From: Fidelibacterota bacterium
GTDB lineage: Bacteria > Pseudomonadota > Alphaproteobacteria > Rhodospirillales > Rhodospirillaceae
Reading direction: 5' to 3'
Assembly: GCA_947475295.1 (NCBI GenBank)
Contig: CANJLF010000001.1
Span: forward strand, 124,001 to 188,000
DNA length: 64,000 nt
This document shows, piece after piece, positions 48,385 to 63,137 of this stretch. Position 1 is the first letter of the stretch. Each line of letters begins with the position of its first letter. The notes beneath the pieces were generated by a model that worked only from the letters and a program-made list of their open reading frames with translations, ran no database searches and was not told the DNA's origin. Made by a program: the position numbers and the translations under genes.

Positions 48385-49152
48385 ATGACGGCGGTTTCCC
48401 CCGGCGCAGTGGACAAGCTGACACCCGTTACAATCGCGGCTGTGGTTGGGGGCGCAGGCGTGTTGGCCATATCTATTTGGACGCTGACGGCGTCCCAATC
48501 CTTCGGTGGCTGGTTCGCGACCGGCGCGCTGGCGACCTACGCCGTGGCCGGGGTGATTGTCGTCGCCCGCATCGGGGCCTATCACCCATACCCGCGTTTC
48601 GGCGCGGCCAACGCGGTGACCTTGAGCCGTTTGATCCTCACCAGCCTGTTCGCGGGTCTTGCCGCCGAGACCGCCGTCCTAGACACAGCGGTCGCCGCCG
48701 ACACCGCGTGGCTTTTTACCGGGCTGGCCGTATTTACGCTGATCCTGGACGGACTCGACGGATGGCTCGCGCGGCGCTCCGGCTTGGCGTCGCCCTTCGG
48801 CGCCCGCTTCGATATGGAAACTGACGCGCTGCTAATTCTGCTGCTGTCGGTTCTTGCACTGAACTTAGACAAGGCCGGGCCCTGGGTGCTGCTCGGCGGC
48901 CTGCTGCGATATATCTTTGTTGCGGCCGGTTGGATATGGCCGGCCTTGGCGCAGCCGCTGCTGCCGTCGCGTCGCCGCCAAGCCATTTGCGGGCTACAGT
49001 GCGGTGCGCTCACAGCGCTGCTGTCGCCAATGGTGATGCCGCCCTTGAGCGCCTTCTTCGCGTCTACGGCTCTCGGCCTTCTTATCTTGTCCTTCGGTCA
49101 GGATGCGTACTGGGCCTTGGGCAATCCGGTCCTACGCTCTTCTCAAAGGTAG
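48385..49152 (+). CDS. CDP-alcohol phosphatidyltransferase family membrane protein
   Basis: The 255-residue polytopic protein carries the family catalytic motif DGLDGWLARRSGLASPFGARFDMETD, with the four metal-binding Asp and conserved Gly and Ala-Arg. About seven hydrophobic helices surround it. Such enzymes displace CMP from CDP-diacylglycerol or another CDP-alcohol to make phospholipids or inositol-phosphate compounds. The partners are not defined here. It lies 11 nt before the sulfatase-fold gene and starts the rightward three-gene group. Confidence 0.88.
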   Translation: MTAVSPGAVDKLTPVTIAAVVGGAGVLAISIWTLTASQSFGGWFATGALATYAVAGVIVVARIGAYHPYPRFGAANAVTLSRLILTSLFAGLAAETAVLDTAVAADTAWLFTGLAVFTLILDGLDGWLARRSGLASPFGARFDMETDALLILLLSVLALNLDKAGPWVLLGGLLRYIFVAAGWIWPALAQPLLPSRRRQAICGLQCGALTALLSPMVMPPLSAFFASTALGLLILSFGQDAYWALGNPVLRSSQR

Positions 49153-49163
49153 TTACCTCTCAC

Positions 49164-50837
49164 ATGAAGAGCAGAAAATTCGCCCGCCGCCAGGATCGCA
49201 CTGTCCTCAATCACGGTTTGCGGTGGCTTGCGGCGTTAGCGGCGATGTACCTGATTCTGGTTTTGCCGGACCGTGTGAACGGTCTCGGCTCGCTCCTCAG
49301 TCCGCGGCTGCCACTGGAATTGCCGCTGATCGTACTGGGATTGGTCGCCGTGTCGGGCTGGGCCGGGGCGCTGCTGCGCGGCCTGATCGTTCTGGCGCTG
49401 ACGGTGACGCTGCTATTCAAGCTGGCCAACATGGCGGCCTTCTTCGGTTTCGACCGCCCCTTCAACCCGCTCGTGGACGCGCTGATGGTGCCGACCGCTC
49501 TCGATACTCTTGGCAAAGCCGCCGGCCCCGCCGCCGCCTTCGCGGCTGTTGCCGGCGCGGTGCTGGTGTTGGCCTTGATTGTCGGTGTGCTGGTGTGGGT
49601 GGCGGGCGTGGTGGCTCATGGTCTTTCCGAGAATGCCCGGCTGCTGGTGGCTGCCGCAGCACTTGGTTCCGTGGCCCTTGCTTTCACACCTTATGCAACC
49701 TGGAGCGCCAGCCTGTTTGCCCGCAATCAGGCGGTGGCGGTGTCGCAAGGGGTGCGCGATGCCGCTCAGTTCCGCGCGCAGCTGCTGCAAGATCCCTTCA
49801 GCGACCTTCCGTCCGAAAGCCGCTTGGCCGGACTCAAAGGTACCGACGTTCTGCTGATCTTTATTGAATCCTACGGTCGTGCGTCGTTGGACAATCCGGC
49901 CTATGCGCCGCTTCTCCGCGGCACGCTGAAGAAATTCAACGGTGCGCTCGCAGACAAAGGCTTCAGCGCCCGCAGCGCCTGGCTGACGTCGCCGACTTTC
50001 GGCGGTGAGAGCTATCTCGCCCACAGCACGACGGTATCTGGGCTATGGGTCGATAACCAGCAGCGTTATGTCCAGCTCCTGCGCAGCCGTCACGACACCC
50101 TGATCAGCGATTTTAACGGCGCGGGCTGGCACACGGTCGTGGTGATGCCCGAGATCACCATGCCCTGGCCGGAAGCGTCCTATTTCAAGTACGGCAAGAT
50201 CTACGCCGCGCCCGACCTTAATTATAAGGGCGAACCCTTCGACTACATGACCATGCCCGATCAATACGTCCTGTCGGCTTTCCATGGGCGGGAGATAGCA
50301 CCGGTGGACCGTAAACCGGTCATGGCCGAGATCGCGCTTATATCAAGCCACATTCCCTGGACGCCGGTGCCGAAGCTGGTGCCGTGGGAGGATGTCGGCG
50401 ACGGACAGATTTTCAACACCGCACGCACGACCGAAGACAGCGATGAAATCTGGCGCGATCCCAAGCGCATCGCTGAATACTATGCCATGTCGGTGGACTA
50501 CACCCTGCAAACCCTGATGTCCTATGTCACCACTCAGGTTGGCGACCGCACGCTGCTGATCATCATGGGCGACCACGAACCCATGAGCTTTATCGCCGGC
50601 GAGGGCGCCAGCCATGAGGTGCCGGCCCATATTATCGCCCGCGACCCCGCGCTGCTGGATGCGCTGGGCGAGGGGAAGTGGACGCTGGGGATGGAACCCG
50701 ATGCCACCAGCCCGTCTTGGCCCATGAATACGGTGCGGGAACGTCTCCTTACGGCTTTCGCCAAGGCTCCGGATGCTGCAGTGTCACCGCTTGAGTCAGT
50801 GCCGGAAGCTGCGCCCGTTCAACCCGCAAAACCCTAA
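49164..50837 (+). CDS. membrane sulfatase/alkaline-phosphatase-superfamily protein
   Basis: I start at ATG 49164; the open frame upstream only shadows the preceding gene. The 557-residue product has about five membrane helices (residues about 15-210). A periplasmic hydrolase domain follows with VLLIFIESYGRASLDN, GGESYLAHSTTVSG and LLIIMGDHEPMSF, the metal-site Asp/His block of LtaS- and MdoB-like phosphoglycerol transferases. The Thr or Ser nucleophile is probably in SYGRASLD or FGGESYLAH. It may transfer or remove a phospho-alcohol group. It is adjacent to the CDP-alcohol transferase. Confidence 0.82.
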   Translation: MKSRKFARRQDRTVLNHGLRWLAALAAMYLILVLPDRVNGLGSLLSPRLPLELPLIVLGLVAVSGWAGALLRGLIVLALTVTLLFKLANMAAFFGFDRPFNPLVDALMVPTALDTLGKAAGPAAAFAAVAGAVLVLALIVGVLVWVAGVVAHGLSENARLLVAAAALGSVALAFTPYATWSASLFARNQAVAVSQGVRDAAQFRAQLLQDPFSDLPSESRLAGLKGTDVLLIFIESYGRASLDNPAYAPLLRGTLKKFNGALADKGFSARSAWLTSPTFGGESYLAHSTTVSGLWVDNQQRYVQLLRSRHDTLISDFNGAGWHTVVVMPEITMPWPEASYFKYGKIYAAPDLNYKGEPFDYMTMPDQYVLSAFHGREIAPVDRKPVMAEIALISSHIPWTPVPKLVPWEDVGDGQIFNTARTTEDSDEIWRDPKRIAEYYAMSVDYTLQTLMSYVTTQVGDRTLLIIMGDHEPMSFIAGEGASHEVPAHIIARDPALLDALGEGKWTLGMEPDATSPSWPMNTVRERLLTAFAKAPDAAVSPLESVPEAAPVQPAKP

Positions 50838-50850
50838 GGGAATCTCGCTG

Positions 50851-51630
50851 GTGTTTTCGACCTTCGTTCATCAGACGCAAAGTCAGGTTTACGGCAAGGA
50901 TGCCGTGGCGATCATTCCGCTGGCGGCGGTGGAAACCCACGGCCCGCATCTGCCGCTGGGCACCGATGGACTCATCGCCGAAGGCCTGCTTGATCGCGCC
51001 GAAAAAATCGACACCAGCGCCGCGACATTTGTGCGCTTGCCGCTGCTGTGGCTCGGCGCTTCGGCGGAGCACGCCGACCGTCCGGGCACGTTGAGCGTAG
51101 AGCCGGAACAGCTGATTGAGCAAATCGTTGCCATCGGCGATGGTCTCGCGCGCGCGGGTATCCGGCGCGTGATGCTATTCAACGGCCACGGCGGCAATGT
51201 CGCGGCCGCGTCCATCGCCGCCCTTAAACTCAGAACGCGTTTAAACATGCTCGCGGCCAGCGCCCATTGGCTCGACTTCGGGCTGCCGCCTGATCTTGTG
51301 CCACCGGCGCCGGTGGCGGGCGACGTTCATGGTGGATGGGTCGAGACGTCGGTGTTGCTGCATCTCGCACCGCAGCTGGTGGTGAAGGCGGCGGCTACAC
51401 CACGCGCTGCTTCGGCGCCGGCCCCCGGCCTGTTTCCCGAAGGTCCCATCGCTTGGGGCTGGAAACTCGATGATCTGGCGCCGCGCGGCGCGTCGGGCGA
51501 GGGTGGATGGATCGGGCGTCCCGATCTGGCGACGCCGGAGTTAGGGCGGATGCTGGTGGATCACACCGCGCAGGAAGTGCTGCGCGTTTTGCAGGGCCTC
51601 GCCGCCGCAGCCTGGTCGGCGCAAAAATAG
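50851..51630 (+). CDS. creatininase family amidohydrolase (MftE/ArfB-like)
   Basis: I start at GTG 50851, with AAGGGAA upstream. The 259-residue product has the creatininase metal sites: IIPLAAVETHGPHLPLGTD, HADRPGTLSVEP, VMLFNGHGGNVAAA and the late GDVHGGWVETSVLL. Family members include creatininase, the mycofactocin peptidase MftE and the archaeal formamide hydrolase ArfB, which acts on a GTP-derived pyrimidine. Given a GTP cyclohydrolase II gene immediately beyond it, an ArfB-like role on a pyrimidine intermediate is attractive but unproven. It ends 5 nt before the convergent ribA-like gene. Confidence 0.86.
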   Translation: MFSTFVHQTQSQVYGKDAVAIIPLAAVETHGPHLPLGTDGLIAEGLLDRAEKIDTSAATFVRLPLLWLGASAEHADRPGTLSVEPEQLIEQIVAIGDGLARAGIRRVMLFNGHGGNVAAASIAALKLRTRLNMLAASAHWLDFGLPPDLVPPAPVAGDVHGGWVETSVLLHLAPQLVVKAAATPRAASAPAPGLFPEGPIAWGWKLDDLAPRGASGEGGWIGRPDLATPELGRMLVDHTAQEVLRVLQGLAAAAWSAQK

Positions 51631-51635
51631 TTCAG

Positions 51636-52775
51636 CTACTTCCTGAAAGAGTGCCGGCCGATTTCGTCCAGCATATGGCCCGCGCGCCGGGCCTTGGTCT
51701 TCAGGTAATTGTGATTGTGCGGATTGACCGCGCCGATGATGCGCTGATGCCCGACCACATCGACACCGAAATCCTCCAGCGCTGTGATCTTGCCGGGGTT
51801 GTTGGTCATTAAAGTGATGCGGCGAAACCCGAGCAGCGCCAGCATGGCGCCGGCGACGGCATAGCGCCGCTCGTCGGGCCCGTAGCCCAGCACGGCGTCG
51901 GCATCCATGGTGTCGTGGCCCAGCTCCTGCAAACCATAAGCGCGCATCTTGTTGAGCAGTCCGATGCCGCGACCTTCCTGATCGAGGTACAGCAGCACAC
52001 CGCTACCGGCGGCGGCGATCTCGCCCACGGCCATGCGCAACTGATCGCCGCAATCGCATTTGAGGCTTGCGAAGAGATCACCCGTTAAACAGGCCGAGTG
52101 CAGGCGCGTGAGTACGGGGTGATGCGGATTCGGTTCACCAATGACAATGGCGACCTGATCGTGCAGGCCGTCGCCGCCGCGAAAGATCACGAACTCGGCG
52201 TCGGTGGCTTCGGCCAACGGCACGCGCGTGCGCGCGGCGATGGTCAGATCCCGCGCCGACTGTTCATGAAAGTCGGCAACCGCGGCGGCATCGACCTCGG
52301 CGAGCGCGGTCTGGGTTCCAGCGGCCGCCGGCACCACCACCGCCGCCGGCAAAAGATAGGCGCGTTTCACGAGTTCCAGGGCCGCGGCCTCGAGCGCATG
52401 CGCCGGTCGGTGTTCGAAGACCGGCACCGACGGCTCGACCGCCAGCAGCATGGCGTCGATCTCATCACCCGTGAGGCCGCCTAAGGAAACGTACGACGGA
52501 CCTGCGGCGGTAACCCCAAGATGGGCGAGACGCGGCGCCGGCAAAACCAGGCCCGGTGCGCCGCCGGTGGCGCGGTGCCAGGCTGCGATGCGCTCTCCCG
52601 CCAGCATTTCGGCGGCGGCGACGGTGAGGTTCATGCCGTTGTTTCCGACGAGCTTAACCGGGCGGCCGGCGCGCAGTTCGCCAACGGCGCGCTGAACGGT
52701 CAGGCGGCCGGTATTACCGAACCACCTTGCCAAGTCACCATCGACGGTACCAATCTTCACATCCTCGTTCGGCAC
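51636..52775 (-). CDS. ribA: GTP cyclohydrolase II with a degenerate RibB-like N-terminal domain
   Basis: The 379-residue product starts at GTG 52775 (AAAGG upstream). The C-terminal half is a complete GTP cyclohydrolase II: the zinc site HSACLTGDLFASLKCDCGDQL, YLDQEGRGIGLLNKMRAYGLQE with the catalytic Arg, YGPDERRYAVAG and LMTNNPGKITALEDFGVDVV. The N-terminal 180 residues align in outline with dihydroxybutanone-phosphate synthase. Where that enzyme has its acidic metal-binding loop, this one reads VKLVGNNGMNLTVAAAEML, so that activity should be absent. It opens the GTP ring to a diaminopyrimidine. Confidence 0.92.
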   Translation of the reverse strand: MPNEDVKIGTVDGDLARWFGNTGRLTVQRAVGELRAGRPVKLVGNNGMNLTVAAAEMLAGERIAAWHRATGGAPGLVLPAPRLAHLGVTAAGPSYVSLGGLTGDEIDAMLLAVEPSVPVFEHRPAHALEAAALELVKRAYLLPAAVVVPAAAGTQTALAEVDAAAVADFHEQSARDLTIAARTRVPLAEATDAEFVIFRGGDGLHDQVAIVIGEPNPHHPVLTRLHSACLTGDLFASLKCDCGDQLRMAVGEIAAAGSGVLLYLDQEGRGIGLLNKMRAYGLQELGHDTMDADAVLGYGPDERRYAVAGAMLALLGFRRITLMTNNPGKITALEDFGVDVVGHQRIIGAVNPHNHNYLKTKARRAGHMLDEIGRHSFRK

Positions 52776-52802: not shown

Positions 52803-53600
52803 ATGAACACCATTGTGGACTGGGATCGGGACACTCCGCAATGGTCGGCGGTGCTGGCTGCGACCAAAGATTGTGGCAGAACAGGGGCTTCTTCGGCCAA
52901 CACCTTGTGGCCGCTTTACGCGCCCTTAGTCGAGGTCCCAGCCGGTCAGAATGTCGTGATCGGCCAATTGGGGCAATCGCTCGACGGACGTATTGCGACG
53001 CCTACCGGCCATTCCCACTATATCAACGGCGTGGCCGCGCTGGTGCACCTTCATCGGTTGCGGGCCTTGGTGGACGCGGTCGTGGTCGGGGTCGGCACGG
53101 TTGTAGCCGACGATCCGCAATTAACTGTGCGGCGGGCTGAGCGGCGGGAAGGGGTCGCCCAACCGGCGCGCGTGGTGATCGATCCCCGGGGCCGCATGCC
53201 GCCTGAGGCCAAATGCCTCGCGGATGACGGCGCGCGGCGAATCGTGATTCAGGCGGGCGCCAAACCTGCCGCCCGCTCGGGTGTGGAATATATAAGTGTA
53301 CAGCCATTGGACGGCGCCATGGCGCCGCGCCTTATTTTAGCGGCGCTGGCCGAGCGGGGCGTGCGCCGTATTCTGGTGGAGGGCGGCGCCAATACTTTGT
53401 CGCGCTTTCTGTCGGCGGGCTGCCTTAATCGCCTGCACATTGCGGTCGCGCCCATAATCATCGGGTCCGGCCCGGTGGGCATCGACCTCGCCGCCATCGA
53501 TTGCCTTGATGATGCGCTGCGCCCGCGCGTGACAAGCTTCGCCTTGCCGGACGGTGAGGTTCTGTTCGACTGTGCGTTTTCCGCAAAGGCCTCGCCATGA
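52803..53600 (+). CDS. stand-alone RibD C-terminal (pyrimidine reductase) domain protein
   Basis: The 265-residue product from ATG 52803 has the RibD_C/dihydrofolate-reductase-like fold: VVIGQLGQSLDGRIATPTGHSHYINGVAALVHLHRLRALVDAVVVGVGTVVADDPQLTVR. The NADPH block RILVEGGANTLSRFLSAGCLNRLHIAVAPIIIGSG follows. The deaminase domain of RibD is absent, replaced by a 50-residue unknown N-terminus. It would reduce a ribosylaminopyrimidine phosphate to the ribityl form. It is divergent from the cyclohydrolase gene with only 27 nt between starts. Confidence 0.88.
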   Translation: MNTIVDWDRDTPQWSAVLAATKDCGRTGASSANTLWPLYAPLVEVPAGQNVVIGQLGQSLDGRIATPTGHSHYINGVAALVHLHRLRALVDAVVVGVGTVVADDPQLTVRRAERREGVAQPARVVIDPRGRMPPEAKCLADDGARRIVIQAGAKPAARSGVEYISVQPLDGAMAPRLILAALAERGVRRILVEGGANTLSRFLSAGCLNRLHIAVAPIIIGSGPVGIDLAAIDCLDDALRPRVTSFALPDGEVLFDCAFSAKASP

Positions 53601-54136
53601 CCGATACATCTCCGCGTTACCGCGCGCCCGCGCAAGCCCTGCATTGGCTGACGGCGATTGCCGTGCTGTGCGGTGTGACCTTGGGAATCTCCATGCTCAA
53701 CGTGAAGCCGGGAGATTTTCAAAACCGTCTGTTCGATTTGCATCGCTCCTTCGGCGCGCTGATCCTAGCGCTGACCGCATTGCGGCTGCTGTGGCGGCTT
53801 TATTCTCTGCCGCCGCCCATGACCGTGGAGATGCCGGCATGGCAGGAACGCGCCGCCCGCGTTACCCATGCGGCGCTTTATATTCTGCTGTTCACGGTGC
53901 CCATCGTGGGATGGGTGGGAACGTCAGCCTTCGGGGCGCGGATTCCGGTCTTTGGACTCTTCGAACTTCCCATGCTCGTCGAGCAGAACAAACCCTTGGC
54001 CGAGGTGCTCCTAAAACTGCACATGGCGCTGGCGCTCACGCTTTGCGCTCTGCTGGTTCTGCACATCGGCGCGGCCTTGCATCATCATTTCATCCGCAAG
54101 GACGATACGCTGCGGCGCATGCTGCCGAGGCTCTAA
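53597..54136 (+). CDS. cytochrome b561 family protein
   Basis: The 179-residue product overlaps the RibD_C stop (ATGA). It has four membrane helices with paired heme-ligand His residues: ALHWLTAIAVL and FDLHRSFGALIL in the first half, VTHAALYILLFTVPIVGW and LKLHMALALTLCALLVLHIGAALHHHFI in the second. This is the CybB/DUF-type b561 layout, a quinone-linked electron carrier. Coupling to a pyrimidine reductase gene is unusual and hints at membrane redox chemistry in the pathway. It is convergent with the methyltransferase gene (4-nt overlap). Confidence 0.88.
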   Translation: MTDTSPRYRAPAQALHWLTAIAVLCGVTLGISMLNVKPGDFQNRLFDLHRSFGALILALTALRLLWRLYSLPPPMTVEMPAWQERAARVTHAALYILLFTVPIVGWVGTSAFGARIPVFGLFELPMLVEQNKPLAEVLLKLHMALALTLCALLVLHIGAALHHHFIRKDDTLRRMLPRL

Positions 54137-54981
54137 CCGCGCGCGGCAAAAACGTCGCGGTGACCAATGATCAGCTGATGTGAGTTCCGACTTTGGTGCT
54201 GCAGCCAATCGGTCAAAGCAGAGGTATCCACCATACCGGTTTCACTCACCGCGCCGGCGATGCCTTCCGCCGTCGCTTTCAACAGGAGTGAATCGTCCAA
54301 TATCCAGGGGCTCTCGCCCGCCGTGAGGCGATAGCCCGCGTTGACCAACGCAGCTTCGAGAAGCAGCGCTGCCTCGGCGCCGGCAGAAGGGCCAAAGCCT
54401 TTGTTGCGGGTCTGATGCGCGCGGAAGGCGGCGGCAACGGCGTCGTCCAGCGCGTGCGGCGGGCGCCCTTCAATCTTGCCGTTGGCGGTGAGCGTCGCCA
54501 GCAGCGGAATATTCCAAACAGCCAGCGCTAGCGTGAACCGTTCAATCCACGCCGCCGAAACCAGATCGATCAGCGCCGACGCTGTGACGAGCTCCGTACC
54601 GTCGGGCCAGCAGGCGGGGTTCTGCGCGAAGTCGTGAACCTGGGTGCGGATGTCGATATGCTTTCCACCGTGCCGCAGCGTGAGGCCGCCGTCCCGCGGC
54701 GAAGTGGTATCAGCCCAAGCCGCGAGCGCGGTAAGTGCTGCGCCAAGGTTGTTGGCGTCGTGATCGACGAGCGTCCAGTGCTGTTCCGCCGGTAGCATGG
54801 GCGCCAGGGCGCGCACCGACGCGCCGGTGCCGGCGCCCAGGTCGCAGATCGCCAATGTGGCACGGGAGGCGAAGGTTTTCGCGCAGGCCTCATGAACCGC
54901 GTCATTGCGCGCGGCTTCATCGGCTGGTTCGCGCAAGGACAGCCAGGCTGGGGAAAAGTCACTCACGGTAAAGATGCCCAC
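54133..54981 (-). CDS. class I SAM-dependent methyltransferase
   Basis: The 282-residue product has the SAM motif I ATLAICDLGAGTGASVRALAP and WTLVDHDANNL as motif II, with ELVTASALIDLVSAAWIE as a motif IV-like strand. The C-terminal half has an RHxx-type cap not diagnostic of substrate. The start lies 19 nt inside the end of the glycosyltransferase gene, so they are tightly coupled. The target is unknown; context suggests a small pyrimidine/pterin-type or sugar compound. Confidence 0.85.
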   Translation of the reverse strand: MGIFTVSDFSPAWLSLREPADEAARNDAVHEACAKTFASRATLAICDLGAGTGASVRALAPMLPAEQHWTLVDHDANNLGAALTALAAWADTTSPRDGGLTLRHGGKHIDIRTQVHDFAQNPACWPDGTELVTASALIDLVSAAWIERFTLALAVWNIPLLATLTANGKIEGRPPHALDDAVAAAFRAHQTRNKGFGPSAGAEAALLLEAALVNAGYRLTAGESPWILDDSLLLKATAEGIAGAVSETGMVDTSALTDWLQHQSRNSHQLIIGHRDVFAARG

Positions 54982-56027
54982 AAGGCTTCGGCGACCTGGG
55001 CGGCGGTATTGGTCCAGCGCGGAAGAGTCTGCCCATGGACCCAGGCCGCCTCGCTGAGGTGCCGGCGATAGGCCTGGTTGGAGAGCATCTTACGAAGTGC
55101 CGCCGCCAGAGCGGTGGGGTCTTCGGGCGGCACCAGAATGCCGGTGTTGGTGGGCACGGTCTCCGTCACCGCGCCGGTAGCGCAGGCGACGACGGGAATA
55201 CCGTGTGCCAGCGCCTCGGCGAAAACCATGCCGTAGCCTTCGTGCCGCGACGGAAGAACAAAAACGTCCGCTCCGGCGTATATTTTCGCCAACGCCGCAT
55301 CCTTCATCTCGCCACGCAAAGTCACGCGCTCCTGCAGGCCGTGCTTGGCGATAAGACTTCGGATATTGGCGGTGACCGCCGCATCGCGGTCTAGGCTGCC
55401 GACCAGATCGCCGGTCCAGGCCAGATCGGAAATGCGCGCGAGGGCGTCGATCAATACGTCATGGGCTTTACGATGCGTCAGCGTCGCAACGGTCAGAAGC
55501 TTGGGAATGGGTCCGGCATTGTGAGCGCGGGGCGCCGCGTCCGTGCCCGGCAGAGCCAGATAGAGGCGGCCGCGCGCGACATTATAATCGCGCGCCAAGG
55601 TTTCCACAGTGTGCAGGCTGGTGGCGACCACCGACTGTGCCAAGGCAAGGGCTGCCCGCTCGGAGTCTTTAAACCGCGCCACATCGGCGGGGGGCAGTCC
55701 GGTTTCGTCCGCCAACGGATGATGGACCAGAGCCGTCAGGCTGAGATCGAACTCTTCAATCACCGCGCGCGGCAAAGCACCGAAGGCGAGGCCGTCCATA
55801 AGCACCGGTGTTTCCGGCGGCAAGGCAAGCAGCGTGTTGCGCGTCGCCGCGATGTCGGCGTCGGACGGATTTGGAAATCCAGCCGGTAACGGCAGATGAT
55901 GGGGAAACCACCCAGCCGCGGGCAGGGCTTGCATCAGCCGCCGGGCATAGGCATAGCCGCCCGTCAGAGTTTCGAGATCGCCGGGGATCGCAAAAAAGAC
56001 ATCAGGCACCTTTGAGCTCCGACTCAT
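54963..56027 (-). CDS. GT4 family glycosyltransferase
   Basis: The 354-residue GT-B enzyme has PGDLETLTGGYAYARRLM at the acceptor side and LLTVATLTHRKAHDVLIDALARI. The donor-site block is ADVFVLPSRHEGYGMVFAEALAHGIPVVACATGAVTETVPTNTGILVPPEDPTALA, with the EGYGMVFAEA Glu-x7-Glu motif of GT4. The start could be ATG 56027 (26-nt overlap with the PTPS-like gene) or GTG 56009 (GGAG 8 nt upstream). The sugar donor and acceptor are unknown. Confidence 0.88.
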   Translation of the reverse strand: MSRSSKVPDVFFAIPGDLETLTGGYAYARRLMQALPAAGWFPHHLPLPAGFPNPSDADIAATRNTLLALPPETPVLMDGLAFGALPRAVIEEFDLSLTALVHHPLADETGLPPADVARFKDSERAALALAQSVVATSLHTVETLARDYNVARGRLYLALPGTDAAPRAHNAGPIPKLLTVATLTHRKAHDVLIDALARISDLAWTGDLVGSLDRDAAVTANIRSLIAKHGLQERVTLRGEMKDAALAKIYAGADVFVLPSRHEGYGMVFAEALAHGIPVVACATGAVTETVPTNTGILVPPEDPTALAAALRKMLSNQAYRRHLSEAAWVHGQTLPRWTNTAAQVAEALWASLP

Positions 56028-56409
56028 AGGACGCCAGCGCGTTGTGAGATTCGTGCAGCGTGATCTTCAGGCGCGCGAGACCGCGTGCGCCGGGCCCCAA
56101 CTTGCCGGTGTCGATGGCCTGTTTCATTTTCTGAAACACCCAGTGGGCGACGGCTTCGGTGGTCGAGCGCCGGCCGAGAAAATCCGGGTGTTCATCGAGA
56201 TTGCTGTAATTGATGGAGGACAAGACCTGCTTCACGGTGTCGGTGGCCAGCCCGATATCGACGACGATGTCGTTTTCGTCCAGTTCGCGCCGCATGAAGC
56301 AGACGTCGATGACATAGGTCGCGCCATGCAGTTTCTGGGCCGGCCCAAAGACCTCGCCCTTGATGCTGTGGGCGATCATGACGTGATCGCGGACTTCTAC
56401 GGCATACAT
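56002..56409 (-). CDS. 6-pyruvoyl-tetrahydropterin synthase/QueD-like protein with an altered zinc site
   Basis: The 135-residue product has the T-fold pattern: DHVMIAHSIKGEVFGPAQKLHGATYVIDVCFM, VVDIGLATDTVKQVL, NYSNLDEHPDFLGRRSTTEAVAHWVFQKM and the end block RLKITLHESHNALASYE. QueD and PTPS bind zinc with one His plus an HGH pair; here the pair is HGA (codon GCG), so a ligand is missing, and the usual catalytic Cys before it is absent. The HE and DEHP elements of the active site remain. It may bind a pterin-like ligand or do different chemistry. Confidence 0.82.
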   Translation of the reverse strand: MYAVEVRDHVMIAHSIKGEVFGPAQKLHGATYVIDVCFMRRELDENDIVVDIGLATDTVKQVLSSINYSNLDEHPDFLGRRSTTEAVAHWVFQKMKQAIDTGKLGPGARGLARLKITLHESHNALASYESELKGA

Positions 56410-56427: not shown

Positions 56428-57399
56428 TTAAGTGTAGGTCAAAACGGTCATTAGGCCGGCGCCGCCGTCGGCCAGGACCTTCGGCAAAGCCGCCGGCGCA
56501 TCGGTGAGGGCGATCTCGCCGGTGATGAGGGCGTCATAACGATCATCGCGTAAAAGCTCCAGGGCTTTTGCCATACGCCGCGCCGTCGACCAACGCACGC
56601 GCCGCGCCGGCGGCACCGCGCCGACCTGCGACGATACCAATTGCAGACGGCGGGCATGGAAGCCTTCGCCGAGAGCAACCGCAATATCCTTGTCGCCGTA
56701 CCAGCTGGCTTCGACCACGCGGGCTTCCACACCCGCCGCCGTCAGGGCGAGGCGCAAGCCTTCGGCCGTGCCGCTGGTGTGGATGACGACGTCTTGGTCT
56801 TCGGGTGTATTGCCCGAGGCCGCAAAGCCGGCGCCAAGGCTCGAAGCAACGGCCGCGCGCGAGGGTTCGATATCGGTGACGGTAACCGTCGTGCCGGGAA
56901 TACGGGCGGCGATCCCGGCGGTCAAGAGACCCAACACGCCGGCCCCGACAATGAGCACGCGGTCACCGGGCGCAATGCCCGCATCCCAGACTACGTTGAG
57001 TGCGGTTTCCATATTGGCGGCGAGCGCAGCCCGGCGCGGCGGCACTCCGGCGGGCAGCGTATGGGCGTCGGCGAGAGACACGCAAACCTCGCGCTGATGC
57101 GGATGCAGCAGAAAAACATTTTCGCCAATGCGCGCCGCAGGCCCCTCGGCGATGACGCCCACCAGCGCGTAGCCGTATTTCACCGGAAAGGGAAAGTTTC
57201 CATCCTGATAGCGACAGCGCATGCGCTGGTGTTCCGATACGGGCACGCGACCGCGAAAAACCAGCCGCTCGGTGCCGCGGCTTACGCCAGAGAACCGCGC
57301 CGTCACACGCACGTTTTGGGGTTCGGTTTGCGGCACGTCCACAGGACGGATCTCGATCCGTCCATCGGCTACGTACCAAAGGGCATCGCTGCGCGGCAT
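56428..57399 (-). CDS. medium-chain dehydrogenase/reductase with atypical zinc region
   Basis: The 323-residue MDR-fold protein has a Rossmann motif VLIVGAGVLGLLTAGIAARIPG and the N-terminal GroES-like part (SGVSRGTERLVFRGRVPV and KYGYALVGVIAEG). In zinc alcohol dehydrogenases these spots read CGTD and GHE, which carry the catalytic Cys and His/Glu ligands. Neither is present, so zinc catalysis is doubtful. It somewhat resembles BchC-type dehydrogenases. It lies 18 nt upstream of the PTPS-like gene in the same leftward group. Confidence 0.82.
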   Translation of the reverse strand: MPRSDALWYVADGRIEIRPVDVPQTEPQNVRVTARFSGVSRGTERLVFRGRVPVSEHQRMRCRYQDGNFPFPVKYGYALVGVIAEGPAARIGENVFLLHPHQREVCVSLADAHTLPAGVPPRRAALAANMETALNVVWDAGIAPGDRVLIVGAGVLGLLTAGIAARIPGTTVTVTDIEPSRAAVASSLGAGFAASGNTPEDQDVVIHTSGTAEGLRLALTAAGVEARVVEASWYGDKDIAVALGEGFHARRLQLVSSQVGAVPPARRVRWSTARRMAKALELLRDDRYDALITGEIALTDAPAALPKVLADGGAGLMTVLTYT

Positions 57400-57450: not shown

Positions 57451-58893
57451 TCAAGGCACGATTCTGTACACGGGATGGTATTCGCCCGACAGCTTCATGC
57501 GCTTCTGCGCGACGAATTGCGCGAGCAGGGCGTCAAGAGGCTGCATCAGGCGGCTATCGCCGCTGATCTCAAAGGGCCCGCGCGCCTCAACCTGGCGGAT
57601 GATGGGCTCGCGGATATTGCCCGCCACCAGCGCCGAAAAAACCCGCCGCAGATTGGCGGCGCGGGTATGGACAGGCTGGTCGAGGTGCAAATCCAAATCC
57701 GCGACGTTTTCGTGCGTCACTTGGAAAGGCACTTGCAGGCCGGGCGGGATGTTCAGAGTCCAGTTGAAGTTATAGGCGTCGCCCGTGGCCGTGCGGTACT
57801 TCCGCACCTGCTCCAGCCCGGCGACCATGGCGCGCGCGGCTTCGGCCGGATCGTTGATGACAATGCGGTAGCGCGCCTGGGCGCCCGGCCCCAGGGTGAG
57901 TCCGATGAATTCATTGACGCGCTCAAAATAAGGCGCCGACGAAGCCGGGCCCGTCAGCACCAGCGGCATGGGTTGCGCTGCGTTGGCAGGGTCGAGAAGC
58001 ACACCGAGAAGATAAAGAATTTCCTCCGTCGTGCCGACGCCGCCCGGGAAAACGATGATGCCGTGGCCGAGGCGCACGAAGGCCTCCAGGCGTTTTTCGA
58101 TATCCGGCATGATGACGAGGTGATTAACGATGGCGTTGGGCGGCTCGGCGGCGACGATGCCCGGCTCGGTCAGGCCGACATAGCGGCCGTTGTGGATGCG
58201 CTGTTTCGAGTGACCGATGGTCGCGCCTTTCATGGGACCCTTCATGGCGCCGGGGCCGCACCCCGTACAGACGTTGAGTCCGCGCAAGCCCAGCTCATAG
58301 CCGACGCGCTTGGTATAATCGTATTCCTCGCGGGAAATCGAATGCCCACCCCAACACACCACCAAGTCGGGCTGGCCCTTGTTATCGAGCACCCGCGCGT
58401 TGCGCAGAATGCAGAACACGGCGTTGGTGATGCCGTCGGGCGTCGCCAGATCGAAACGCCCGTTATCGACGATTTCGTTCGAGATATAGACAATGTCGCG
58501 CAGCACCGCGAACAGGTGTTCCTTCACGCCGCGAATCATCTCGCCCTCGACGAAAGCAACGCCGGGCGCGTGCGTCAACTCGAGCTTGATACCCCAGGAT
58601 TGCTGAACGATCTTGAGCTCAAAATCGCGGTAGCGCTCGAACAACGCGCGCGGGTCGTCGCTATAGCTCCCTGAATTGAGTACAGCCAAGGCGCATTGAC
58701 GAAACAGCGGGTAGAGCCCGCCCTGGCCGCGGTCTAATAGCTTGGCGACTTCGTCGTGCGAGAGATTCTCCAAACTGCCGCGCGGCGTCACCCGCGCGTC
58801 GACGAACTCGGCGACCTCCACGACGGCGTTGGGTTGCGCCGCCGGTGTAACTTGCGGCCCCTGGTCCATTTGTTCTGAAGTTTGAGCGGTCAT
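57451..58893 (-). CDS. ppnN: PpnN-like nucleotide 5'-monophosphate nucleosidase (LOG family)
   Basis: The 480-residue product has the LOG/PpnN core: DLVVCWGGHSISREEYDYTKRVGYELGLRGLNVCTGCGPGAMKGPMKGA. FVRLGHGIIVFPGGVGTTEEILYLLGVLLDP follows, with the PGGxGTxxE nucleoside-phosphate site. Length and flanking domains fit E. coli PpnN (YgdH), which splits purine and pyrimidine monophosphates into base and ribose 5-phosphate. It lies 51 nt upstream of the dehydrogenase gene and may share its transcript, making a link to the adjacent GTP-derived pathway possible. Confidence 0.88.
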   Translation of the reverse strand: MTAQTSEQMDQGPQVTPAAQPNAVVEVAEFVDARVTPRGSLENLSHDEVAKLLDRGQGGLYPLFRQCALAVLNSGSYSDDPRALFERYRDFELKIVQQSWGIKLELTHAPGVAFVEGEMIRGVKEHLFAVLRDIVYISNEIVDNGRFDLATPDGITNAVFCILRNARVLDNKGQPDLVVCWGGHSISREEYDYTKRVGYELGLRGLNVCTGCGPGAMKGPMKGATIGHSKQRIHNGRYVGLTEPGIVAAEPPNAIVNHLVIMPDIEKRLEAFVRLGHGIIVFPGGVGTTEEILYLLGVLLDPANAAQPMPLVLTGPASSAPYFERVNEFIGLTLGPGAQARYRIVINDPAEAARAMVAGLEQVRKYRTATGDAYNFNWTLNIPPGLQVPFQVTHENVADLDLHLDQPVHTRAANLRRVFSALVAGNIREPIIRQVEARGPFEISGDSRLMQPLDALLAQFVAQKRMKLSGEYHPVYRIVP

Positions 58894-58950: not shown

Positions 58951-61179
58951 CTACCGTGGCCGTCTCGCGGGGACGTCAATATCCTCCGGCGGCAGACCGG
59001 CATGGTACCGCTCATACATGCGGGTAAAGGCCTCTTCGATATGACGGGCGTAGAGTTCGGCGTTGAATAGGGGAGAGGTCAGGCGGCGCTCGGAAAGGCG
59101 CCGCTTGAGAGCTGCCAGCCTCGATGGATTGTTGGCGAACGCAACGGCGCTCGCTTCGTATTCATCCAAGGAGCTTGTGATCAGTTCCGGTAAGTCCAGA
59201 GCGTTCAGTAGGCTCGCGGCAACGCGCCCGGCAAAAGCAACCCCAGTGCATGTCAGAACCGGCAGCCCCATCCACAAGGCATCGGCGGCCGTAGTGTGGG
59301 CGTTATAGGGCAGAGTGTCCAAAAACAGATCGGCAGCCCGATGCCGCGCCATGTGCGCGCCGTGGGGCGCGCGCGGGGCAAATACCAGGTGTTTTGCGGC
59401 GATACCCCGCCGCTCGGCCTCTGCCCGCAGATTGGCAACGGCTGTGGGATTGTCTTCGAAGAGCCAAAGCACGCTGCCCTCGACCTGTTTTAGAATCCGC
59501 ATCCAGATATCGAAAATGTCGGGTGTAATTTTGAAGTTGTTGTTGAAACAGCAGAAGACGAAACCCTTCGCAGGCAAGCCGAGCTCGGCGTGCGACGGGA
59601 CAGGTTCACTATCAACGCGTGCGTGATCATTAGGTTGGTAGCTGTGGGGCATGTAGACGACGCTCTCAAGGTAGTGCGGGCGGATGCCCTCCGGCATCAC
59701 AGTCCGATCGCCAATCAGATAGTCGTGATAGCCGGTGCCCATGGTTCCCGGGTAGCCAAGGCAATTGACCTGAATCGGCGCGGCTCGCATAGCGAATACG
59801 GGTGCACGCGCTTGGCTGGTGTGACCAGCAAGGTCGATAGCAATGTCAATCTCGAGGTTTCTGGCCTGCCCCGCGATTTCTCTGTCGGACCTGCCGCGCA
59901 CATCGATAAATGTGTCGAAAGCCCTTTCCATTCTTTTGCGCGTGCCGTCTTGCGTATCGGGACCGAATGAAAAGCCGTAGACCTCGAATTTATTGCGGTC
60001 GTGGGCCTCTATGGTGCCAGCAACCAGCAGTGCGATCGGATGATTACGGTAATCCCCGGAAAAATAACCGAGCCGGATTTTCGCGCGGTGCGGCCGCTTG
60101 GGAAGCGGTCCCAATACGGGGTTGAGCGGACAGTCTTTCGCCACCCAGATTTCTGCGGCCTTCCCGTGGATTTCCGGCGAATCTGTGAAGGTGAGAACGG
60201 CGAAAGGCGCTCCGACCTTTTCCCCCCGCGCCACGCTGTTTATCAAATGCGTGATCTCGCCGTCGTAATCTCGCCAATCGCAGATCTGCATTTTGGTATG
60301 GAGGCGAGATCCCCGAAAAAAGGCGTCTGCAGGGCTGATCCCGATCGCCTTGTCGTAACTTTCCAGGGCCGCCGCGTATAACTTCAACTCATTGAGAAGA
60401 GCGGCCCGGTTGTAGTGGACCTCCGCCGCGTCGGGCTTGATTTGCAGGGCTCTGTCGTAGCTCGCGAGGGCTTCCCCGTTGCGTTTCAGCTCTTTCAGCG
60501 CCATGCCGCGGCTGTTGTGAGCGTCGGCTAGGTCGGGCTTCAATTGAATGCCGCTATCAAAGCTGGTCACAGCCGCCTGGTATTGCCGCAGGGCCAGCAA
60601 TATCTGGCCGCGACTATTGTAAATCTCCGCGTTATCGGGATTGAGTTCTATGGCTTTGTCGTAACTCTCGATGGCGGCTTGCGGATTTTTCAAATCCCTT
60701 AGAACATTGCCGCGATTGACGTGGGCCTCGGCGAAGTTGAGCTTTAGCGCGATGGCGCGGTCGTAACTGCCAAGCGCATCCTCAAGCCGCTTTAAAGCCA
60801 CGAGGGCATTGCCTCGATTGTTGTAAGCATGGGCATAGGTGGGGTTCAGCCGGATTGCTTGGTCGAAGCTTTGAATCGCCGCGTCGGGCTGCTTCAACGC
60901 CAGCAGAGCGTTGCCCAGGTTGAAGTGCGCCGTGTCATTGGTTGAGTCAACCTCAAGGGCGGCGCGGATCAAACCCACGGCTTGATCGAACTGGCGCATC
61001 TGCCCGGAGGCGATACCGGCCAAATGCAGCGCGTCGAAATGCCGAGGCTGCAGCTTGATGACGTCTTGATAAGCCGCCAAGGCCTGCGGCAGCTGCTCCT
61101 TTTGATGCAGGGACCAGGCCTCCAGCACCTTCGCCTGAATCTGCGCGGCGTCGTTTGTATTTCCAGGTTCGGGCGTCAT
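58951..61179 (-). CDS. TPR-containing O-GlcNAc-transferase-like (GT41) protein
   Basis: The 742-residue product has about eight 34-residue TPR units in the first 290 residues. A GT41 domain follows: LGYFSGDYRNHPIALLVAG (active-site His), AIDLAGHTSQARAPVFAMRAAPIQVNCLGYPGTMGTGYHDYLIGD, FVFCCFNNNFKITPDIFDIWMRIL (sugar-nucleotide Lys) and ADLFLDTLPYNAHTTAADALWMGLPVLT. These are the SPINDLY/OGT signatures, so it should glycosylate Ser/Thr of proteins. It is the last of a leftward array; its start overlaps the preceding gene by 4 nt (ATGA). Confidence 0.9.
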   Translation of the reverse strand: MTPEPGNTNDAAQIQAKVLEAWSLHQKEQLPQALAAYQDVIKLQPRHFDALHLAGIASGQMRQFDQAVGLIRAALEVDSTNDTAHFNLGNALLALKQPDAAIQSFDQAIRLNPTYAHAYNNRGNALVALKRLEDALGSYDRAIALKLNFAEAHVNRGNVLRDLKNPQAAIESYDKAIELNPDNAEIYNSRGQILLALRQYQAAVTSFDSGIQLKPDLADAHNSRGMALKELKRNGEALASYDRALQIKPDAAEVHYNRAALLNELKLYAAALESYDKAIGISPADAFFRGSRLHTKMQICDWRDYDGEITHLINSVARGEKVGAPFAVLTFTDSPEIHGKAAEIWVAKDCPLNPVLGPLPKRPHRAKIRLGYFSGDYRNHPIALLVAGTIEAHDRNKFEVYGFSFGPDTQDGTRKRMERAFDTFIDVRGRSDREIAGQARNLEIDIAIDLAGHTSQARAPVFAMRAAPIQVNCLGYPGTMGTGYHDYLIGDRTVMPEGIRPHYLESVVYMPHSYQPNDHARVDSEPVPSHAELGLPAKGFVFCCFNNNFKITPDIFDIWMRILKQVEGSVLWLFEDNPTAVANLRAEAERRGIAAKHLVFAPRAPHGAHMARHRAADLFLDTLPYNAHTTAADALWMGLPVLTCTGVAFAGRVAASLLNALDLPELITSSLDEYEASAVAFANNPSRLAALKRRLSERRLTSPLFNAELYARHIEEAFTRMYERYHAGLPPEDIDVPARRPR

Positions 61180-63137
61180 GGCAGCATGCGACTCAAGTCG
61201 GCTTCGATCTTCTCGAATACGCCCTGCCAGTTTCCGGGCGTATCCTGCCTATACAGCCTAGCGGCGGCATACCAAGGGCTGTCGGTTCTGTCCAGAAGCC
61301 AGCGCCAATCGGGGTTGAAGGGCAGCAAGATCCACACTGGTTTGCCCAGAGCGCCGGCGAGATGGGCGACGCTGGTATCGACGCTGATGATAATGTCCAT
61401 GAGGGCGCAGAGCCCGGCGGTATCGGAAAAATCCGCGAGCTGGTCGCCCAATTGGCGAATGTCGGCGCGGCCCTGCAGGGCCGGCAAATCCCCCGGGCGA
61501 ACGTCCTTTTGCAGGCTCACGTATTCAAAGCCCTTGGGCAGCCGCGCGAGGAGGTTGGCGAGGCTAATGCTGCGGTTGCGATCATGGCTATGGCCGGGGC
61601 TGCCGCTCCAGACGAGGCCGATGCGCGGTTTTACTTTGTCACCCAAGATGGTTTGCCATGACGCCACCTTCTCAGGCGCTGGCGTGATGTAGCCTTCCGG
61701 GCTTGGAATAGTGTCGAGCCGTGTCCTGAAGGCTAAAGGCAGACTCATCAAGGGGCAGTGGAAATCAAAGGCCGGCAAATGCGCGCCCCTGGCGATGATC
61801 TCCGAAACACCCGCGAGATTTTGCAAGAGCGGTAGAAGCGGATCGCGCACCTCGAGAATGACGCGCGCCCCGAGGTCGGCCGCCGGTTTAGCATAGCGGC
61901 AGAACTGAATCGTATCGCCCAGCCCCTGTTCGGCGTGCAGCAAAATCGTTTTGCCCTGGAGAGACTCAAGCCCCAACCAGAGCGGTTGGGAAAACCCGCG
62001 CAGCTTGGTTTTCACGTTGCGGTCTTTCCAGCGCCACTCGTAGGCGGGCCAGCCGCGCTCGAAGTCGCCGCATTGCAGGTGACAAAGACTGAGCGCCCAC
62101 TGAGCGTCCGCATGGTTTGGCTCCAAGGCGATGGCCTTGCCGTGGCTCTCCATGGCCTCGGCGTGGCGCCTCATCTCACGCAAGGCGAGGCCGCGGCCGT
62201 TGTAGGCGTCGGCGTAGTTAGGACTCAATTCAATCGCGCGATCGTAGTCCGCTAAAGCGGTCTCGTGCCGTCCGATGTCGCCCCAGGCGGCGCCGCGATT
62301 GTAATAAGCCTCGGCATACGCTGGCTGGAGCGCAATGGCCTTATCGTAGCTTCTGAGGGCTGTCCCGAACTGCCTGAGACTGCGCAAAGCATTACCGCGA
62401 TTGTTGTAAGCAAGGACGTAGTCGGGCTTAAGCGCGATGGCCCGGTCGTAGCTCGCCACCGCCGCCTCGTACTGCTTATTGTCCTTCAAGACATTAGCGC
62501 GATTGTAATAGCTCTCGGCGAGATCGGGTTTGAGCCCGATGGCCTTGTCATAGTTCCGCAGCGCCTGTTCGAGGTCGCCCCTACCTTTGAAGATATTGCC
62601 GCGGTTGTTGTAGGCGGCGGCGTGGTTGGGATTGATGGCTATGGCTTTGTCGTAGCTTTGCAAGGCGGCGTCATGACGTCCCAAATCTCTCAGCGCATTG
62701 CCGCGCGCATTGTGGCTATCGGCATGCGCGGGCCGGAGTGCCAGCGCCTGATCGTAACTCTGCACGGCGGCCTCGGCCCGGCCGAGCGCCAGCAACGCAT
62801 TGCCGTGATTATAGTGGGCATCCGGGTAGCTCGGGTTGATCGCGATGGCGCGGGCGTAGCATTCAAGAGCGGCCTCGTGCCGGCCTAGTTCGCCCAAGGC
62901 GGCACCGCGATTATTCTGAGCGGCGGCATGGGACGGGTTGACCTTAAGCGCCTTCTCGATCAAAGCGGCAGCGGTCGCATGATCGCCGGTCTGATAGGCG
63001 ATGATGCCCGCGAAATGCAGCGCGTCAAACTGCGCCGGCTCCTTGCGCAGAATTTCCTCGCAGATGACTTTGGCCTGGGAAAGCTGGCCCTTTTGCAGCA
63101 GCGCCAGAGCCTGCTGGACTTTCGCGGCCGTATCCAT
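61176..63137 (-). CDS. TPR protein with C-terminal GT9-like glycosyltransferase domain
   Basis: The 653-residue product has about ten TPR units in residues 1-370, many near-identical (AYNNRGNALRSLRQFGTALRSYDKAIALQP). A GT-B/heptosyltransferase-like domain follows: GKTILLHAEQGLGDTIQFCRYAKPAADLGARVILEVRDPLLPLL, IGLVWSGSPGHSHDRNRSISLANLL and IISVDTSVAHLAGALGKPVWILLPFNPDWRW. This architecture is common in alphaproteobacteria; the acceptor is unproven. It abuts the upstream GT41 gene with no intergenic base and overlaps the downstream one by 4 nt. Confidence 0.88.
   Translation of the reverse strand: MDTAAKVQQALALLQKGQLSQAKVICEEILRKEPAQFDALHFAGIIAYQTGDHATAAALIEKALKVNPSHAAAQNNRGAALGELGRHEAALECYARAIAINPSYPDAHYNHGNALLALGRAEAAVQSYDQALALRPAHADSHNARGNALRDLGRHDAALQSYDKAIAINPNHAAAYNNRGNIFKGRGDLEQALRNYDKAIGLKPDLAESYYNRANVLKDNKQYEAAVASYDRAIALKPDYVLAYNNRGNALRSLRQFGTALRSYDKAIALQPAYAEAYYNRGAAWGDIGRHETALADYDRAIELSPNYADAYNGRGLALREMRRHAEAMESHGKAIALEPNHADAQWALSLCHLQCGDFERGWPAYEWRWKDRNVKTKLRGFSQPLWLGLESLQGKTILLHAEQGLGDTIQFCRYAKPAADLGARVILEVRDPLLPLLQNLAGVSEIIARGAHLPAFDFHCPLMSLPLAFRTRLDTIPSPEGYITPAPEKVASWQTILGDKVKPRIGLVWSGSPGHSHDRNRSISLANLLARLPKGFEYVSLQKDVRPGDLPALQGRADIRQLGDQLADFSDTAGLCALMDIIISVDTSVAHLAGALGKPVWILLPFNPDWRWLLDRTDSPWYAAARLYRQDTPGNWQGVFEKIEADLSRMLP

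Follow-up and report, generated by a model that had tools for sequence, protein, structure and literature searches.

The protein encoded on the minus strand at positions 56002–56409 of the window, the 64,000-nucleotide stretch of DNA under study, is a new member of bacterial PTPS-IV, a known subfamily of COG0720, and the HGA motif that it carries is not new. Its subfamily identity, the fixation of HGA, purifying selection on the gene and a conserved operon are directly established. PTPS-IV was described in 2017 as cluster-node 62 of COG0720, with the signature FGPAQ, a total of 561 sequences and a neighbourhood containing PF00925 and PF01872 (RibD_C); PF00925 is there called 'GTP cyclohydrolase I', its Pfam name being GTP cyclohydrolase II (PMC5445326). 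The window protein displays the signature at F21–Q25 and both neighbours are encoded in the window, PF00925 at 51636–52775 on the minus strand and PF01872 at 52803–53600 on the plus strand.

Residues and fold of the window protein

The 135 aa protein matches the Pfam PTPS model (PF01242) with 80.5 bits against a gathering cut-off of 22.4, but misses the NCBIfam cut-off for QueD (TIGR03367, 89.25 bits) with a score of 41.6 bits and stays below threshold with the NCBIfam 6PTHBS model (36.6 bits). It retains H14, H28 and E120 and has an alanine, A30, at the position of the third zinc-binding histidine. The motif is encoded by CAT GGC GCG at 56320–56328 (minus strand), and the codons CAT-GGC-GCG-ACC with GCG as codon 30 confirm the H28-G29-A30 that the earlier note had read in place of HGH. 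Starting from either histidine codon, GCG differs at all three bases, and therefore a one-base sequencing error cannot account for HGA.

The absence of the catalytic cysteine, likewise claimed beforehand, extends to the whole bacterial family, as position 24 (the Cys of CxxxHGH) is alanine and position 22 (the Cys of CxxxxxHGH) glycine in 124/124 bacterial relatives each. The window protein thus matches neither the QueD/PTPS-I motif CxxxHGH (A24 and HGA), nor the PTPS-II motif CxxxxxHGH (G22 and HGA), nor the PTPS-III motif ExxHGH (Q25 and HGA). A cysteine is also missing from the aligned CxxxHGH position in 6 of the 16 rows of other PTPS proteins. The second PTPS of the window genome (G000:C2:57382-57696; L001, L159) has HGH and no cysteine at that position.

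Two further blocks were said to remain. E120-S121-H122 of HESH is indeed present and largely kept among the bacterial relatives (E120 in 124/124, S121 in 121/124, H122 in 108/124). DEHP, on the other hand, is there in the window sequence but does not hold as a family motif, D72 being fixed and position 74 being histidine in only 33/124. H14, H28, D51, D72, E85 and E120 are invariant in the 124 bacterial rows, and D35, D51, D72, E85 and E120 are among the fixed polar residues of the alignment; E120 is the glutamate by which the T-fold superfamily anchors the 2-amino-4-oxo pyrimidine or pterin ring. Positions 67 and 68, which align with the catalytic Asp-His pair of QueD, are N67-Y68 in the window protein, and are asparagine in 101/124 and tyrosine or phenylalanine in 123/124 of the bacterial PTPS-IV rows, compared to aspartate in 15/16 and histidine in 16/16 of the other PTPS. 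Other residues thus stand in for the catalytic Asp-His pair as well, a point that the earlier note had not mentioned.

With neither a third zinc ligand nor any of the Cys-Asp-His set, the window protein has very probably lost the usual zinc binding along with the PTPS, QueD and PTPS-III reactions. PTPS-IV proteins are nevertheless routinely annotated as 6-carboxytetrahydropterin synthase (QueD), for instance in plasmid records, although the bacterial form lacks the full zinc site and the catalytic residues.

SCO6650 of Streptomyces coelicolor (PDB 3D7J) is a solved PTPS-IV member that is matched by the profile of alignment A1 with an E value of 6.5e-60, and its sequence contains both FGPAQ and HGA. 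An AlphaFold2 model of the window protein made from A1, a 41-row alignment comprising half of an 82-row set, has a pLDDT of 86 and a pTM of 0.83, and superimposes onto 3D7J with a TM score of 0.90 at 54% identity (Z 20.6, rmsd 1.5 Å over 132 residues). The protein is thus predicted to fold as a T-fold subunit close to SCO6650, and comparison of the model with known folds returned nothing outside the T-fold superfamily.

Fixation of the HGA motif in bacterial PTPS-IV

A scan of genome contigs with search peptides that did not include the HGA motif found 291 relatives, and HGA is invariant in the 82 rows formed by the best 80 of these, the window protein and its own-genome copy. A wider set of 124 bacterial PTPS-IV rows combines contig-scan relatives, class-level genomes and plasmid copies, with the own-genome duplicate (L002) dropped. 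The third-histidine motif reads HGA in 124/124 of these rows, HSH in 8/8 haloarchaeal relatives and HGH in 16/16 other PTPS; a further copy (L112) that was read but lies outside the tree set also has HGA. The subfamily is sharply bounded, as 45 of 385 genomes of the class score at least 151 bits while the next place scores 28 bits; 36 of the 45 strong genomes were read for the motif.

The gene is under strong purifying selection: against five close relatives dN is 0.037–0.084 and dS 0.78–1.27, and against a sixth (L009) dN is 0.129 with dS saturated. Across 64 loci conservation among the four operon products is highest for the PTPS protein, with a median identity to the window copy of 56.1% as compared to 53.2% for the alcohol dehydrogenase, 47.0% for the glycosyltransferase and 40.8% for the methyltransferase. 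Contigs titled Candidatus Marinimicrobia (L005, L007, L008, L010 and others) encode PTPS proteins 75–88% identical to that of the window, as do those of Rhodospirillaceae, and these titles may be mislabelled.

The presence of HGA in 124/124 relatives refutes the idea of an otherwise ordinary QueD altered by an isolated mutation or by a sequencing error. The three base changes, the strong purifying selection and the missed TIGR03367 cut-off speak against it as well, so that its residual probability is practically nil. Homologues with HGH in the same gene context, which would have pointed to such an accident, do not occur among the 16 other PTPS loci.

The operon and its haloarchaeal counterpart

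The PTPS gene is the second of a tight conserved operon on the minus strand, which is usually found near RibD_C and often near RibA. The first gene encodes an MDR 'zinc-binding alcohol dehydrogenase' (ADH, 56428–57399) whose stop lies 18 bases before the PTPS start. It is followed after PTPS by a family 4 glycosyltransferase (GT4, 54963–56027), the start of which overlaps the PTPS end by 26 bases, and by a class I SAM methyltransferase-like protein (MT, 54133–54981) that overlaps the glycosyltransferase gene by 19 bases; MT is named after the annotation of its relatives and itself has no Pfam or NCBIfam match at E 0.001. Beyond MT lie an accessory cytochrome b561 (53597–54136, plus strand), the RibD C-terminal reductase domain protein, which lacks a deaminase domain and whose start codon is assumed, and the PF00925 protein, an extra RibA-type GTP cyclohydrolase II paralogue. 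Next to these are a creatininase-family amidohydrolase (50773–51630) and a sulfatase-superfamily protein (48930–50837), both given by their ORF limits with assumed starts, and a CDP-alcohol phosphatidyltransferase (48385–49152), all three on the plus strand. Read along the plus strand the order is therefore CDP-alcohol transferase >, sulfatase-like >, creatininase >, RibA <, RibD_C >, cytochrome b561 >, MT <, GT4 <, PTPS <, ADH <. A PpnN nucleotide nucleosidase (57451–58893) lies directly upstream of the operon and has a copy beside it in five close relatives as well, and two adjacent large proteins (742 and 653 aa) that carry TPR-like repeats (type judged by eye) are encoded on the minus strand at 58951–63137.

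Among 106 loci ADH is found at 104, GT at 100, MT at 94, RibD at 58 and RibA at 42, in a sample where 19 loci are 3.4 kb pieces unable to show RibA, contig ends truncate many others and eight loci of the own genomes are excluded. The accessory genes, namely CDP-alcohol transferase (41), sulfatase (37), cytochrome (32), creatininase (26) and LPG-synthase-TM (16), are less frequent. An independent sample of 20 of the 45 class-sample PTPS-IV genomes, chosen with wide flanks, contains ADH at 20, GT at 20, MT at 19, RibD at 16, RibA at 7, CDP-alcohol transferase at 6 and creatininase at 5 loci. In both counts taken together, CDP-alcohol transferase, creatininase and sulfatase belong to a minority of loci. 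The 16 control loci of the same class, the second PTPS of the window genome and 15 of the 17 weak places from the 385-genome scan, show none of ADH, MT, RibD or RibA (0/16 each) and a single weak GT match (1/16). The expectation of a conserved HGA subfamily with constant neighbours is upheld, with HGA in 124/124 bacterial relatives and ADH and GT at 20/20 independently sampled loci, as is the contrast drawn with FolE, the neighbour being GTP cyclohydrolase II. The window genome encodes three PF00925 and two RibD_C proteins, which makes the cluster RibA and RibD_C extra copies. The Streptomyces plasmid copies L113, L122 and L123 are stand-alone PTPS-IV genes outside the operon, near genes for MBL-fold, cupin and BTAD-regulator proteins.

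A methionine in place of Tyr105 of E. coli RibA causes GTP cyclohydrolase II to halt at the formamide (FAPy); deformylation would then fall to a relative of creatininase. At the position that we take to be equivalent, the window RibA has tyrosine, as do 40 of 42 loci; the Streptomyces cluster L109, related to that of SCO6650, has methionine and L035 has histidine, and both are accompanied by a creatininase. Creatininase also occurs at 22 loci with a tyrosine-type RibA, and a FAPy rule linking RibA Met/His to creatininase was therefore dropped.

A tblastn search of plasmids returned 21 records including a Haloarcula relative at 25% identity, and repeating the search with this relative returned 11. 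In the eight readable haloarchaeal copies (L108, L114–L120) ADH precedes and MT follows PTPS in 8/8, with one small gene between ADH and PTPS in L120 and with the MT of L108, annotated as hypothetical, recognised by profile; GT4 lies between PTPS and MT in four (L108, L115, L119, L120). In three Haloarcula clusters (L114, L116, L118) genes for a 'GTP cyclohydrolase IIa' and a CDP-alcohol transferase immediately precede the operon, and the one cyclohydrolase that was scanned is PF05165, GTP cyclohydrolase III (272.6 bits); these three clusters come from a single genus and are nearly alike. A creatininase and a CDP-alcohol transferase lie near L108, and a CDP-alcohol transferase near L120. In L121 (2998–3377; Haloarcula marismortui pNG700) the operon PTPS is frame-broken with no gene annotated, and a second deposited record matches in two pieces.

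The haloarchaeal proteins keep all three histidines (HSH, 8/8), have a GPEG-type rather than a GPAQ motif, and at positions 67–68 have arginine or glutamate followed by aspartate, without the Cys or the Asp-His pair. The HGA subfamily itself was already published as PTPS-IV. Since these eight relatives keep the third histidine beside the same ADH and MT, zinc loss is not a requirement of the gene set, and metal independence is not general to it. In a 73-row tree of 124 columns with the motif region excluded, PTPS-IV and the haloarchaeal proteins separate from other PTPS with support of 99/91 and A30 arises by one change, although the program warned of long-branch meeting. The three-His/two-His split is a natural experiment on metal loss in the T-fold.

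Candidate functions and known systems

Spread over Proteobacteria, Actinomycetota and haloarchaea, the gene set has the look of a single GTP-derived pathway. Either of two unrelated enzymes that open the GTP ring can stand next to it, a swap that provides a concrete, testable starting substrate. The most likely reading, with about an even chance, is that the window protein is a pterin- or pyrimidine-binding T-fold protein without the canonical zinc site that acts in a pathway from ring-opened GTP. GTP would be ring-opened by RibA in bacteria, or by GTP cyclohydrolase III in some haloarchaea, to 2,5-diamino-6-ribosylamino-pyrimidinone phosphate, which the deaminase-free RibD_C would reduce. The T-fold protein may then bind a diaminopyrimidine or pteridine derived from it and perform or present a metal-independent step, which could be isomerisation of the side chain or closure with a carbonyl that the dehydrogenase generates, after which GT would glycosylate and MT methylate the product. 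In many hosts the CDP-alcohol transferase could attach the product to a phospholipid; speculatively, this enzyme together with the sulfatase-like and LPG-TM proteins points to an end product linked to lipid. That RibA lies in the flank of only 42/106 loci, and 7/20 in the independent sample, counts against this reading, as do the origin of the three GTP cyclohydrolase III clusters in a single genus, the HSH of the haloarchaeal relatives, the Streptomyces plasmid copies outside the operon and the low frequency of CDP-alcohol transferase, creatininase and sulfatase.

The T-fold protein may instead be non-catalytic and act as a binding subunit or scaffold, keeping a pterin or pyrimidine ligand available to the dehydrogenase, the glycosyltransferase or the methyltransferase. 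The joint loss of the third zinc histidine and of Cys, Asp and His fits such a role, as do the tight gene order and overlapping genes, whereas the three histidines of the haloarchaeal relatives oppose it; its position as the most conserved operon protein with many fixed polar residues would suit a working pocket, yet a binding pocket too. On balance a non-catalytic role is the less likely reading, though a serious contender. A bolder and rather doubtful proposal is that the product of the operon is an undescribed cofactor, a pteridine or diaminopyrimidine that is glycosylated and methylated, in many hosts anchored to phospholipid, and serves membrane redox through cytochrome b561. Bacteria would open the GTP with RibA and haloarchaea with the unrelated GTP cyclohydrolase III; the T-fold enzyme would at first have had three histidines and lost its metal once, in the bacterial branch.

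PTPS-IV could also serve the synthesis of coenzyme F420 (deazaflavin), with RibA and RibD_C supplying 5-amino-6-ribitylaminouracil. Archaeal PTPS-IV is said to do so in an unpublished remark relayed by a paper that also describes the role of PTPS-V as unclear (PMC5041015). This remark favours an F420 role, and so does one genome (G326) with CofGH, F420 ligase, an F420-type NADP oxidoreductase and CofD a few kb from the operon, together with a second genome of that genus (G246) in which CofD lies ~7 kb away. In this one alphaproteobacterial genus, CofGH, F420 ligase and CofD adjoin the PTPS-IV operon at L157 (844–6295). Against it, the 97% complete window genome (G000) has no match to CofD or CofH_C, a CofD match is absent from 36/45 PTPS-IV genomes, and the other seven overlapping genomes carry CofD and PTPS-IV on different contigs. 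CofD is not enriched either (9/45 PTPS-IV genomes against 53/340 others, Fisher p 0.52), these counts being upper bounds as PF01933 includes YvcK-like proteins and the E. coli control matched. An F420 role is thus unsupported in the window genome, even if one genus links both, and as a general explanation it is improbable.

Searches of an open-licence paper library gave no earlier account of the three-histidine haloarchaeal branch, of GTP cyclohydrolase III as its neighbour or of the F420 test. With QueD/PTPS-I (E. coli, 4NTK) the window protein shares the T-fold, the first two histidines and the ring-binding glutamate, but it lacks CxxxHGH, the third histidine and the Asp-His pair and falls below the TIGR03367 cut-off. 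SCO6650 differs in being actinobacterial and was reportedly found in 2008 to be without zinc, the triad and PTPS activity. SCO6655 is described as a GTP cyclohydrolase II (PMC2853524). From the published PTPS-IV the protein does not differ, having the same FGPAQ, PF00925/PF01872 neighbours and Pfam PTPS domain; the passages on the subfamily there mention neither HGA nor an ADH-PTPS-GT-MT operon (PMC5445326). The haloarchaeal PTPS-IV-like proteins resemble bacterial PTPS-IV in the ADH/MT setting and in the lack of Cys and Asp-His, and differ from it in HSH, the GPEG-type motif and, in three clusters, the adjacent GTP cyclohydrolase III.
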